Of a stretch of 64,000 nt of DNA, positions 8,398 to 35,619 are shown piece after piece. The stretch comes from Candidatus Cryptobacteroides intestinavium (GTDB lineage: Bacteria; Bacteroidota; Bacteroidia; Bacteroidales; UBA932), in contig JADIMI010000061.1 in NCBI GenBank assembly GCA_017694845.1, positions 1 through 64,000 on the forward strand, read 5' to 3'. The stretch's first letter is position 1. Each line of letters opens with the position of its first letter. The notes beneath the pieces were generated by a model. The model had not been told where the DNA came from, did no database searches, and saw only the letters and a program-made list of their open reading frames with translations. The translations under genes were made by a program, and so were the position numbers.

Positions 8398-8429
8398 TGG
8401 GATGGGCGCTGGTATTATACTGTCATTCC

Positions 8430-8682
8430 GGGCACAGTATTATGTCATTCTGAGCGCCCTCTCACTGTCATTCTGAGCGACAGTGAAGAATCTGGAGGGG
8501 ACGAACCTTTGCTGAACTCCGGAACGGTGCTTCAGATCCTTCACTCCGCCTGCGGCTTCGTTCAGGATGACAAGGGAACGAATGACAACGGACCGCGAAC
8601 GCGACATTTTCGTATCTTTCTGAATGCCAAGGTATTATAAAAAATCGTTGTTCGTGGTCCGTGCTTTTTTGGGGGCCGGTGC
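8430..8682. repeat. intergenic repeat island 1 (TCATTCTGAGCG.. / CTTCACTCCGCCTGCGGCTTCG and GTTCGTGGTCC families)
   Basis: Segments recur at 24.8-26.2 and 33.4-34.2 kb in this window. Confidence 0.75.
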
Positions 8683-24808: not shown

Positions 24809-25026
24809 TACTTGCTGCAGACCTGCATCCCGGATGGATTGATGCCTCGCACCGGCTGCGGGACCGTCCTGTCACCATAGACGCAGCCTCTTTTCTGTCA
24901 CCATAGACGGAGCCGCAGGCGGAGTGAAGGATCTGGAGCACTTCAACGGTCCTGTACCAGTTGTTCTTGCAACTGACATAGGGTTTACCGGCAATCCCTG
25001 ATTTTCCGAGAAATTATGCTGTTCTC

Positions 25027-25323: not shown

Positions 25324-25430
25324 GACACAGAAGGATGGCAGAAGGGGCATATTTTTTCGGATCACCGGGGAAACCATGTGTTTTTAACTTTTGTTGTCGC
25401 GGACGGCTTGATGCCCCGCACCGGTATGCA

Positions 25431-25592
25431 GACCGCAAACATCAACTTTTTGTAACTCGTTGATATTCAATATAATGCAAAAATAACTATGTTCGTGGTC
25501 CCTACTTTTTTGAGGGGACCGCGAACAACGATATTTTGTAACGGCCTGTCTTTTAATAAGATACAAATTCGGTTTGTTCGCGGTCCGTTGTT
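25431..25592. repeat. MITE-like element copy A (GTTCGnGGTCC family, ~162 bp)
   Basis: Aligns by eye over its whole length with 33581-33741; ends are inverted GACCGC.../GTTCGCGGTCC, with an internal hairpin GTTCGTGGTCCC...GGGGACCGCGAAC. Confidence 0.75.
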
Positions 25593-25847
25593 CCATCCTG
25601 AACGAAGCCTTTCCTTGTCACCATAGACGGAGCCGCAGGCAAAGTGAAGGATCTGGAGCACCACATTTGTTCTCCACATTGGCAGCCGCCGGTGATGTCC
25701 GGCGCCAGCTACTCCATAGTCTCATCTGTCTTCGTCTTGCCCTGACCGCTCCATCATTCCGCGCCTTGCCGTGCCCATCCCGTTTCCTTATTCCGCATCC
25801 CGTTCCTTATTGCTCTATGCACCCTGTTCTCCCCTGTACACATCTCC

Positions 25848-25910
25848 GGAGATATGCTCCCCGCTGATGCCACACAGAGCGTATATCACGGATCGCCGGC
25901 GCATATCTCC
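25848..25910. repeat. ~61-bp palindromic element copy 1 (GGAGATATGC...GCATATCTCC)
   Basis: Terminal inverted repeats; two further copies at 33929 and 34002. Confidence 0.8.
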
Positions 25911-26011
25911 CGTCCTCCCTCGGTCTCTGCCAGGGCAGACGCTGTCTCAGTTTGCATAGGCAAAAGGGGAAAGTCGATGAACTGATATCCTCGTAGAGAG
26001 TTGTTGTTTTA

Positions 26012-26123
26012 TGCGCAGAGACGCGTCTCTGCCGACGCCTCTGCGCACGGACCCTTCAATATATGCTCTGTATGGCATCATCTGTGCGCAGAGACGTCAG
26101 TCCGGCAACGTCTCTGCGCACAG
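26012..26123. repeat. tandem hairpin element (TGCGCAGAGACG...CGTCTCTGCGCA)
   Basis: 26082-26123 is a perfect 16-bp stem CTGTGCGCAGAGACGT/ACGTCTCTGCGCACAG; 26012-26047 is a related near-perfect hairpin. Confidence 0.75.
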
Positions 26124-26450
26124 GCTCTAAGGGCCTTCGGTACAGATTCTTCGCTTCGCTCAGAACGACAGTGTACTGGCGCTCCCTTAGACAATGCAGG
26201 AAAATGCTCGGATAGACAGTATGCCAGCTCCGGAAGGTCAGGTTGAGACTTCTTTCCTGCATGAGACACAGTGTATTCCCGGTGATCCGGAATATACAGC
26301 CTTGGGGTCCCGAACATAGAGGTAAAGAAGGCAATGTACTTATTTCAAGACTCTACTGGGCGCTCGTCGCCGGAAAGGCAGAGGAGATGATGAGACTTCC
26401 GGAGGGGCTGTTCGCCCGTGCTAACTATCAGATCCATGCTGATGCCGAGC

Positions 26451-27353
26451 CTAAAGCGAAGCTGAACGGAATTCGGAGATTGCGGAGGAGGAGTTGAGAA
26501 GGCGGATGAATTCCTGGGCCGACCGTTTGCGGTAGGTGTTCTTCAGGACGTGGACACAGCCTTCCATCTCGCTTCCGGGAGCATCGATCGGGATTGCCTT
26601 CAGGAACTGTTCGTTATGGATTGTCGCTTCCGAAAGGACGGATACAAGATTGCTCTTACGCACAAGCTGGAGGAGTACATTCACTTCATTGAGCTCGGCC
26701 CGGATACTGAATTCGTAGTCAGCCCTTGATGGAATGGCATCGAAGGCATTTCTGGACTGCAGCCCCTTCGCAGGCATGATCAGGCTGTAGGCCGCCAGAT
26801 CCTTGAGAGAGATGGAATGCCTGTCAGCCACAGGATGCCCGGTGCGTACTATAGCGGAAAGCTTGTTGTAGAACAGGGTATAGGAATTGATGTCAGGATA
26901 GCGCCGCGTCGGCTTGAAGGCCAGGACAAAATCCACCTCCCTCTTCTCGAGCAGCTGCATCAGTTCCTCCATCGGCTTGCAGCAGATATCTATCTTGACG
27001 GAGGGGTACTGCTTCATGAATTCATCCACTGTCTCCGTCAGGATAGGAATGAAAGTGTAAGTTACACCTATCTTCAACGTACCCGTAAGCATCTGCTTGA
27101 GGTCATTGATCCTGTCGACACAGCTCGCAGCGCTGTGGATAGCCTCAATGGCGTATGGGAGCATCTCCTGGCCGGCCTCGGTGAGAATGACATTATGGCT
27201 GGAACGCTCGAACAGCTGTATCCCGATCTCATCCTCCAGCTGGCGGACCTGCTGTGACAATGTACTCTGGGTCACATACAAAGCCTTGGCCGCCTCAGAG
27301 AAATTCAATGTCTCCGCCGCCTTTACGAAATATTTCAGCTGTCTCAGTTCCAT
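26451..27353 (-). CDS. LysR family transcriptional regulator
   Basis: MELRQLKYFVKAAETLNFSEAAKALYVTQSTLSQQVRQLEDEIGIQLFER; full-length 300 aa. Confidence 0.95.
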   Translation of the reverse strand: MELRQLKYFVKAAETLNFSEAAKALYVTQSTLSQQVRQLEDEIGIQLFERSSHNVILTEAGQEMLPYAIEAIHSAASCVDRINDLKQMLTGTLKIGVTYTFIPILTETVDEFMKQYPSVKIDICCKPMEELMQLLEKREVDFVLAFKPTRRYPDINSYTLFYNKLSAIVRTGHPVADRHSISLKDLAAYSLIMPAKGLQSRNAFDAIPSRADYEFSIRAELNEVNVLLQLVRKSNLVSVLSEATIHNEQFLKAIPIDAPGSEMEGCVHVLKNTYRKRSAQEFIRLLNSSSAISEFRSASL

Positions 27354-33213: not shown

Positions 33214-33244
33214 TTTGCCGGAAAGAAAATTTGATATACCTTTG
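33214..33244 (+). promoter_or_regulatory. Bacteroidota-type promoter of the SRP RNA
   Basis: TTTG-N19-TACCTTTG immediately upstream of the SRP RNA. Confidence 0.8.
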
Positions 33245-33248
33245 CAAA

Positions 33249-33344
33249 GGGTAAGTCATACACGACCAGCTCCTGCTGAATCCCCCAGGACCGGAAGGTA
33301 GCAAGGGTAGGTGGTTGTAGCGGTGCGATGTATTCAGCTTACCC
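33249..33344 (+). ncRNA. ffs: signal recognition particle RNA (small bacterial 4.5S type)
   Basis: GGGTAAG...CTTACCC closing stem and conserved SRP helix-8 motif CCCCCAGGACCGGAAGGTAGCAAGGGTAGG; followed by TTTTTT. Confidence 0.96.
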
Positions 33345-33400
33345 TTTTTTCATCTCCCCTCCAATATCCCTTATGTCACCATAGACGCAGCCGCTTTCTA

Positions 33401-33490
33401 TCATCCTGAACGGAGTCACCTTCTGTCATCCTGAACGGAGTTGCCTTCTGTCATCCTGAACGGAGTTGCCTTCTGTCATCCTGAGCGGAG
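33401..33490. repeat. 25-bp tandem repeat (TCATCCTGAACGGAGTTGCCTTCTG, ~3.5 units)
   Basis: Units at 33401, 33426, 33451 and a degenerate unit at 33476. Confidence 0.9.
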
Positions 33491-33580
33491 CCGCAGGCGA
33501 AGTGAAGGATCTGAAGCACCGATAATGCCATACAGAACGTAAATTGAAGGGTCCGTGCGCAGAGGCGCTCTTCGGCGAAG

Positions 33581-33741
33581 GGACCGCGAACATCAATTTT
33601 TCGTAATTCATTGAGACACAACACAATGCAAAATAACCTTGTTCGAGGTCCCCTCAAAAAAGTGGGGACCACGAACGATCGATTTTTGTAATAACCTGTA
33701 TTTCAACAAGATACAAATTCAACTTGTTCGTGGTCCGTTGT
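33581..33741. repeat. MITE-like element copy B (GTTCGnGGTCC family, ~161 bp)
   Basis: TIRs GGACCGCGAAC / GTTCGTGGTCC; internal hairpin GTTCGAGGTCCCC...GGGGACCACGAAC; aligns with 25431-25592. Confidence 0.75.
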
Positions 33742-33928
33742 CCCGCCCTTCTTCTTCAGATTCTTCGCTGCGCTCAGAAAGACATTTCTTGTCACCATAG
33801 ACGAAGCCGACTTATGTCATCCTGAACAAAAGCGTTTCTGTGTCACCATAGACGGAGCCGCAGGCGAAGTGAAGGATCTGGAGTACCACATTGGTCCTCC
33901 ACATTGGCAGCCATCGGTGATTCCAAAG

Positions 33929-33989
33929 GAGATATGCACCCCGAAGATGCCACTGAAGGCGTATATCGATGGTTGACCGCGCATATCTC
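33929..33989. repeat. ~61-bp palindromic element copy 2 (GAGATATGC...GCATATCTC)
   Basis: Matches copies at 25848 and 34002. Confidence 0.8.
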
Positions 33990-34001
33990 GACATTTGCAT
34001 A

Positions 34002-34062
34002 GAGATATGCACCCCGATGATGCCACTGGGAGCGTATATTGAGGGTTGCCGGTGCATATCTC
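34002..34062. repeat. ~61-bp palindromic element copy 3 (GAGATATGCACC...GGTGCATATCTC)
   Basis: 12-bp perfect terminal inverted repeats. Confidence 0.85.
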
Positions 34063-34275
34063 ACGAGGCACAGATTCTTCGCTTCGCTCAGAATGACAAT
34101 GAACGGCCGCTCAGAAGGACAGGAAAGTCGTTCTGTTTCAGATTCTTCGCTTCGCTCAGAATGACAGTGAGAAGTCGCTCAGAATGACAATGTACGGCCG
34201 CTCAGAAGGACAATGTACGGGGTTCAGAAGGATGTGTACCTGAACAGAAGGACCGGGCAGGGAAAGGATCAGGAG

Positions 34276-35619
34276 TCATTTTCGAAGAGACTGCACGGCA
34301 GTGATGATGGCATCCGCTGCGCCATCTATGCCGAGACGTCCTGTATTGAGCACTATGTCGTAGCCGCTGATATCCAGCCACTGTTTTCCTGTGTACTGCC
34401 AGCAGTGGTTGGCGCGGCCGATGTTCACCCTGTCGATCTTTGACGCCGCCTCTTCGGCACTGATATGGAACTTGTCCATCACCTGCCTTACGGCGAATTC
34501 CTTGTCCGATCCGACAAAGACCTTCAGTACGTGAGGATTGTCCCTGAGGATCCAGTTGCCAAGACGGCCGAGGATCACACAAGGACCCTGATGTGCCAGC
34601 TCCCGGACAGTCCGGCTTTCGCTTACATAGATCGCATCATCCTTTGAAGGGTTCATCGACATCGGGATACTGCTGTCAGCAAGGATCATCTCCCAGAGTC
34701 TTGCAGTCGAGATATTCTGTTCGTTCTGTGCCACGAATTCCGGCGAATACCCCATCTGCTCCGCTGCCATATCTATGATCTGCCTGTTGTAGAAAGGACA
34801 GCCGAGCCTGCGCGCGACCTCCTCTCCGACAGCATTACCCCCGCTGCCGTACATCCGGGCCACCGTCACCACACAGTAGTCTCCCCAGCTGTCGGTATCT
34901 GCAGCAGTCCCGGAACCGTGACGTTCGCATGCAGGGATGAATATCCGGTCGAGCCAGCCTATATGGGGAGAGAACACCCTGACCATATATCCGACATAGA
35001 ACATAGACACTATGGTACCGACACCGACCATCTTCCAGTCCCACCTGCCGAAAAAGACAAACATAAATACAACGCCTACAGATACCAGGAAAGTATCCGT
35101 ACATATCTTCACCCTGCTGAAATCCTTCCCGAGGAACTTCGATATGGCCAGAGGTAAACCTTCCCCGGCAAGCATCAGAGAATCACATCTCACCTCACAG
35201 GCTATACCGAAGGCGAGAATGGCTCCTCCTGCCAGAAGTTCAAGGAACCTCAGAGGATATCCGGCCAGAGGACTTATTGTATAAGGGATCTGCAGGAAGC
35301 CGGTCAGCCACATCGTGAAATCAGTATAGAACCCGAAAAGGAAAGACACGACAATCTGGAGGAACTGCCGCTTCTCGAAGTCCTTCCTCAACAGCAATAT
35401 CTGGACTGTGATGAAAAAGACGTGCATACATATCGTCAGCTGACCCATTGTCAGCCCGATTCCAGGTATGAGGGACAGGATATATGGAGGTGCGGATATC
35501 GGGGATGAACCGAGATTGGCCCTGATAGAGAGCGAAGTCCCCAATGCGATGACAAACAGTATTACGACAAAACTCAGATAACGGCGGCCCCATTCCGCCT
35601 TGCTTCTTTCAACGGTCAT
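34276..35619 (-). CDS. YczE/YitT-like membrane protein fused to a cytidylate kinase-like domain
   Basis: N-terminal multi-TM (LGTSLSIRANLGSSPISAPPYILSLIPGIGLTMGQLT) plus C-terminal VTVARMYGSGGNAVGEEVARRLGCPFYNRQIIDMAAEQMG kinase-like P-loop. Confidence 0.85.
   Translation of the reverse strand: MTVERSKAEWGRRYLSFVVILFVIALGTSLSIRANLGSSPISAPPYILSLIPGIGLTMGQLTICMHVFFITVQILLLRKDFEKRQFLQIVVSFLFGFYTDFTMWLTGFLQIPYTISPLAGYPLRFLELLAGGAILAFGIACEVRCDSLMLAGEGLPLAISKFLGKDFSRVKICTDTFLVSVGVVFMFVFFGRWDWKMVGVGTIVSMFYVGYMVRVFSPHIGWLDRIFIPACERHGSGTAADTDSWGDYCVVTVARMYGSGGNAVGEEVARRLGCPFYNRQIIDMAAEQMGYSPEFVAQNEQNISTARLWEMILADSSIPMSMNPSKDDAIYVSESRTVRELAHQGPCVILGRLGNWILRDNPHVLKVFVGSDKEFAVRQVMDKFHISAEEAASKIDRVNIGRANHCWQYTGKQWLDISGYDIVLNTGRLGIDGAADAIITAVQSLRK

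Follow-up and report, generated by a model that had tools for sequence, protein, structure and literature searches.

The window, a stretch of 64,000 nucleotides from a contig of Candidatus Cryptobacteroides intestinavium, carries two repeat elements of about 157 bases, which were confirmed in the sequence and align with each other at 77 % identity (Table 1). The earlier note had described two elements alignable over their full lengths and built of four inverted modules with a central hairpin. Both observations were borne out: in each element, the words follow one another in the order - + - + at offsets 0/60/85/145. A full copy has the composition 11-49-11, 14, 11-49-11, that is, a word, a linker and the inverted word, then an A/T-rich 14-nt spacer, and finally a second, different module of the same plan. 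The words of the family are GTTCGNGGTCC/GGACCNCGAAC, and a single word is not palindromic by itself but pairs only with its partner word. The outer-left word (A; the words are lettered A to D) of element 1 has decayed to AGACCGCAAAC, and the 14-nt spacer of element 2 is CCTCAAAAAAGTGG, the commonest spacer across the family. The shorter or decayed copy placed earlier at ~8591-8682 is a family member, but it is better termed a two-word deletion derivative with a spacer remnant, GTGCTTTTTTGGGGG, at 8661-8675 directly after the module.

Table 1 Repeat features in the window
Feature	Position	Strand	Remarks
Four-word element 1 (probable tandem double-REPIN)	25430..25586	+	module 1 25430-25501, spacer 25502-25515, module 2 25516-25586
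Element 1 central hairpin	25491..25526	.	GTTCGTGGTCCCT-ACTTTTTTGA-GGGGACCGCGAAC, words and 14-nt spacer
Four-word element 2	33581..33736	+	words 33581(-), 33641(+), 33666(-), 33726(+)
Element 2 central hairpin	33641..33676	.	
Two-word (monomer) derivative, same family	8590..8660	+	
Mosaic repeat block with element 1	25336..26466	.	~128 bp counterpart in syntenic relative G325
Mosaic repeat block with element 2	33360..34295	.	~38 bp instead in syntenic relative G124
Second-family module GAGATATGC(43)GCATATCTC	25849..25909	+	family flanks RAYT-1 of the source genome
GAGATATGC-family dimer, two 61-bp modules, 73-bp period	33929..34062	+	same architecture as the element
Pair of TGCGCAGAGACG hairpins	26012..26120	+	family flanks RAYT-2 of the source genome

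When the 33.6-kb copy (element 2) was folded, it was far more stable than its shuffles (z = -7.4). With DNA parameters, 59 of 78 foldings preferred a single long nested hairpin to a pair of hairpins, and covariation among the words distinguished only weakly between two hairpins (A:B, C:D) and one nested hairpin (A:D, B:C). No conserved GTAG or CGTC foot was found at the outer ends of the words, which by this mark are not canonical REPs.

Further dispersed repeats, TGTCACCATAGACGGAGCCGCAGGCGAAGTGAAGGATCTG and CAGATTCTTCGCTTCGCTCAGAATGACA, crowd the same intergenic regions (window positions 24885-24941, 25605-25661, 33369-33519, 33785-33886, 34071-34232 and 8423-8580). A Bacteroidales small SRP RNA (RF04183, 112 bits) lies at 33242-33348, directly upstream of the mosaic block with element 2; an Rfam scan of the window returned nothing beyond this unrelated RNA.

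Copies and genomic context in the source genome

The source genome (G000) is a 2.4 Mb Bacteroidales MAG of 89 contigs with a completeness of 89 %. The word GTTCGNGGTCC occurs exactly 107 times in it, whereas a reversed-pattern control gave 6 and 2 matches on the two strands. When two words separated by 38 to 60 nt were searched for, 94 modules were found against none in the control, and the central palindrome (up to two mismatches) gave 44 matches, again against none. These counts are far above the controls and chance was therefore excluded. BLAST of the element against the genome yielded about 40 copies, so that a duplication limited to this one region does not hold. From the fetched loci, 39 distinct four-word elements with spacings of 60/25/60 and 13 two-word modules were extracted, and the 49-nt linker length was exact in 83 of the 91 linkers of these modules. 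Inverted, hairpin-forming doublets with fixed spacing, and many intergenic copies dispersed through one genome, are both features of REPINs, and both were found here.

The two modules of one element share an identity of 0.57, whereas modules from different elements share 0.76 if both occupy slot 1 and 0.68 if both occupy slot 2. Since modules are closer to same-slot modules elsewhere than to their own partner, the four-word heterodimer appears, on this sequence comparison, to spread as one unit. Most two-word copies match one slot and a few resemble slot-1/slot-2 chimeras, which fits the loss of a segment between the direct words A/C or B/D; they are most simply read as products of such deletions.

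All copies are intergenic: by a simple gene finder, which makes the gene context approximate, none of the 52 mapped copies falls within a predicted gene. Among the 38 copies with both neighbours known, 26 lie between convergent, 9 between tandem and 3 between divergent genes. Their flanks are mosaics of other repeats, and syntenic relatives lack whole mosaic blocks rather than single elements (Table 1), so a clean empty site for one element alone is not seen. Judged from synteny, the two blocks were either gained in the source lineage or lost in the relatives. The dispersed copies and the missing blocks support the earlier proposal of a non-autonomous mobile element without coding capacity; vacant sites, the absence of which would have spoken against that proposal, were thus found in part, as blocks.

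When 60 relatives were searched with the element by BLAST, none gave a match, and neither did phage, plasmid and viral collections. By these comparisons, the repeat family is lineage-restricted. The central palindrome is also present in a genome of the same genus (G077) and in a contig of Candidatus Cryptobacteroides faecipullorum. Genome G124 was considered as a second independent carrier and dropped, as its copies sit in a stretch 99.5 % identical to contig C58 of the source genome. This stretch (G124:C8:73-22664 against G000:C58:8764-31380) extends over 22.6 kb in a neighbourhood otherwise of ~82 % identity, and represents either a recent interspecies exchange or a mis-binned contig.

We also considered a structural RNA or terminator, in which case the hairpins would stop transcription or shield the 3' ends of mRNAs where genes converge. 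The strong folding, the predominance of convergent neighbours and a T-run in the spacer are in line with such a role. However, the T-run falls within the hairpin loop and is not located 3' of a stem, a terminator scan predicted none at either window element, and insertions tolerated at 3' ends would account for the convergent position just as well. Together with the lack of BLAST matches in the relatives and the repeat blocks missing at syntenic loci, this makes the terminator explanation very unlikely, and a secondary 3'-end role may have been acquired after insertion.

RAYTs and four-word arrays in the genus

Most knowledge of REPIN-RAYT systems comes from Pseudomonas and enterobacteria. The sister genome G325 encodes a RAYT (REP-associated tyrosine transposase, HUH/Y1 class; C122:11217-12095, 293 aa), with one four-word element upstream and another downstream of it, both with the spacings 60/25/60. 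The outer words of these arrays (GGACCACGAAC / GTTCGTGGTCC, with GTTCGCGGTAC at one end) are nearly identical to those of the source-genome elements, and the inner words are GTTCGTACACC/GGTGTACGAAC, with GTCCGTACACC in one copy. When the linkers of the G325 arrays were aligned with those of the source-genome elements, a score of 61 was obtained, against a maximum of 33 for shuffled linkers. The protein was recognised as a RAYT by its NHVH and YVLRNP motifs; its best families are NCBIfam REP_Tyr_transpos and PF01797, both with scores under the curated cut-offs.

Since homologous elements with near-identical outer words and unchanged spacings stand on either side of this RAYT, we conclude that the element is very probably REPIN-like, a non-autonomous repeat of intergenic regions that belongs to a RAYT system of Bacteroidales. 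The same locus supports the earlier idea that a transposase or RAYT-like protein specific to the element is encoded at another site. These words are missing from the flanks of the RAYT of G182, which at 52 % is the nearest homologue of the one in G325, and the link between a RAYT and this exact family therefore comes from one locus. Other points also count against the RAYT reading: the source assembly yielded no cognate RAYT (see below), the GTAG/CGTC foot is lacking, the empty sites comprise whole mosaic blocks, the copies are diverged (median nearest-neighbour identity 87.5 %) and give no sign of current activity, and G222 has one element-like array with no RAYT detectable there.

Among 53 distinct RAYT loci of the genus, 22 have a four-word array with words of their own, 9 of them on both sides of the RAYT and 13 with equal arms. 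The finder, which allowed at most 5 mismatches and was written after the element had been seen, was applied with identical thresholds to the controls, and no array was detected in 46 non-RAYT stretches or 60 shuffles. Palindromes of the GTACGCGG type beside RAYTs in G421 and G207 were rejected as relatives of the element, as their outer arms differ and they are alike in kind only.

The element had previously been labelled MITE-like. In a classical MITE, the words would serve as terminal inverted repeats derived from a DDE insertion sequence, and the copies would have moved by cut-and-paste, duplicating the target; such an element would share the inverted ends, small size, many copies and lack of coding capacity seen here. 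However, no consistent direct repeat was found at the element ends (the mosaic flanks limit the power of this check), and the homologous elements bracket a RAYT rather than a DDE gene. No autonomous insertion sequence with matching GGACCGCGAAC ends was found either; among the 100 of 214 strand-wise word places listed, the only transposase enclosed was that of an IS3-family element inserted into a copy. We therefore hold a MITE to be highly improbable. A candidate insertion sequence bracketed by words ~1.7 kb apart on contig C23 was discarded, as it proved to be this IS3-family element, which carries its own ends and sits within the spacer of a repeat copy.

In two copies of the repeat (L074, contig C23, 1742-3437, and L077, contig C9, ~191), an IS3-family element has entered at an identical position, directly behind GTTCGCGGTCT, as if it targets the central spacer. 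ISPpu9 in Pseudomonas REPs may be compared (PMC8450116).

In 6 of the 39 elements, including element 1 of the window (25502-25515), the spacer runs opposite to the two modules, as if the central hairpin had been flipped. An invertible or site-specific recombination module, with the words as recombinase sites and the modules or spacer flipping as switches, would account for this and for the inverted words, but it is scarcely credible, as template switching across the hairpin can also reverse the spacer, a consensus scan gave no promoter in either window element, and the dozens of dispersed copies lie mostly in convergent-gene gaps without a promoter to switch.

As regards the REPIN-like reading, the source genome encodes two RAYTs, which share ~25-27 % identity with that of G325, a third RAYT lineage. 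On both sides of RAYT-1 (C8) lie GAGATATGC-43-GCATATCTC modules, 56 of which occur in the genome, many paired at an exact 73-bp period; with 61-bp modules and a 12-nt spacer, this family has a paired-module design like that of the element. RAYT-2 (C13) is bracketed by TGCGCAGAGACG hairpins. Both were rejected as the direct partner of the element since they are bracketed by other repeats; near RAYT-1, only a decayed two-word copy of the element was found, between the gene and its downstream repeats. The two RAYTs share a conserved leader, TTTGTGAAAACGGATAATTATTCC, just upstream of the start codon (L079, L080), which is possibly regulatory.

A RAYT flanked by the same repeat (the REPtron arrangement) was thus observed in G325, and no cognate RAYT of the element family was found in the 89 %-complete assembly of the source genome. 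It may be encoded in the ~11 % of the genome that the assembly lacks, or it may no longer exist in the species. Several contigs begin or finish within or near these elements, so an element-bracketed RAYT could drop out in assembly or binning. When ksgA synteny was used to seek the missing RAYT, ksgA (rsmA) was absent from the source assembly at E ≤ 1e-20, consistent with incompleteness, and the ksgA locus of G401 carried no RAYT.

Proposed mechanism and comparison with known repeats

By analogy with E. coli TnpA-REP and IS200/IS605, the single-stranded words would pair into hairpins. A Y1/HUH RAYT would then recognise these hairpins, nick and rejoin the strand via its Y1 tyrosine (PMC3116915, PMC6006769), and carry the four-word unit into further intergenic sites, frequently inside existing repeat clusters downstream of genes. 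We further propose, as an evenly balanced possibility, that the RAYTs of this genus have moved away from the single REPIN as substrate and now require a four-word heterodimer with a 12-14 nt spacer and a lineage-specific word, the enzyme recognising and copying the hairpin pair.

REPINs were defined as REP doublets that form hairpins, with singlets as their decay products (Bertels & Rainey 2011, PMC3116915). Like REPINs, the element consists of inverted doublets of short words with a less conserved spacer of fixed length, is intergenic, can form hairpins and has a partner RAYT (PMC3116915); even the 71-bp modules correspond to the 71 bp between the first residues of the 16-mers in GI REPINs (PMC3116915). 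In contrast, the unit here seems to join two unlike doublets in a rigid tandem, a GTAG-type REP is absent, and ~50 elements are present rather than hundreds. E. coli BIMEs and REPs (Y, Z1, Z2) also form mosaic intergenic arrays of inverted palindromic units, but each E. coli REP is palindromic with a GTAG foot (PMC6006769), whereas the word of the element is not palindromic alone.

RAYTs of Bacteroidetes (TnpA-REP/Y1 subclass 2.6) were described in 2018 as flanked by 'atypical secondary structures' that lack GT[AG]G and recur at other sites of the genome (PMC6006769). This subclass is marked by NH[LIV]H, YIH[QN]NP and an inserted segment. The RAYTs here resemble it in the NH[LIV]H motif (here NHVH) and in being flanked by structures without GT[AG]G. 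They have YVLRNP/YIMRNP in place of YIH[QN]NP and may thus belong to another subclass, and the passages of that description that were consulted do not mention a four-word array. The GAGATATGC and TGCGCAGAGACG repeats of the source genome share the module/spacer design, and each family brackets one of its RAYTs, but their words and linkers differ from those of the element, as do the sequences of the RAYTs.

RAYT-type repeats were thus already known, including in Bacteroidetes, and what appears to be new is the rigid tandem of two unlike REPINs as the unit. No literature on REPINs in Bacteroides or this genus was found in a search of partial coverage. With these arrays, the Bacteroidetes branch of RAYTs gains a concrete anatomy of four words, usually equal arms and a short spacer, and one RAYT is now tied to full-length homologues of an orphan repeat. 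Dozens of word-RAYT pairs within one genus can be compared for the co-evolution of RAYT and word, and the repeats may help to explain breaks in the MAGs of these gut bacteria.
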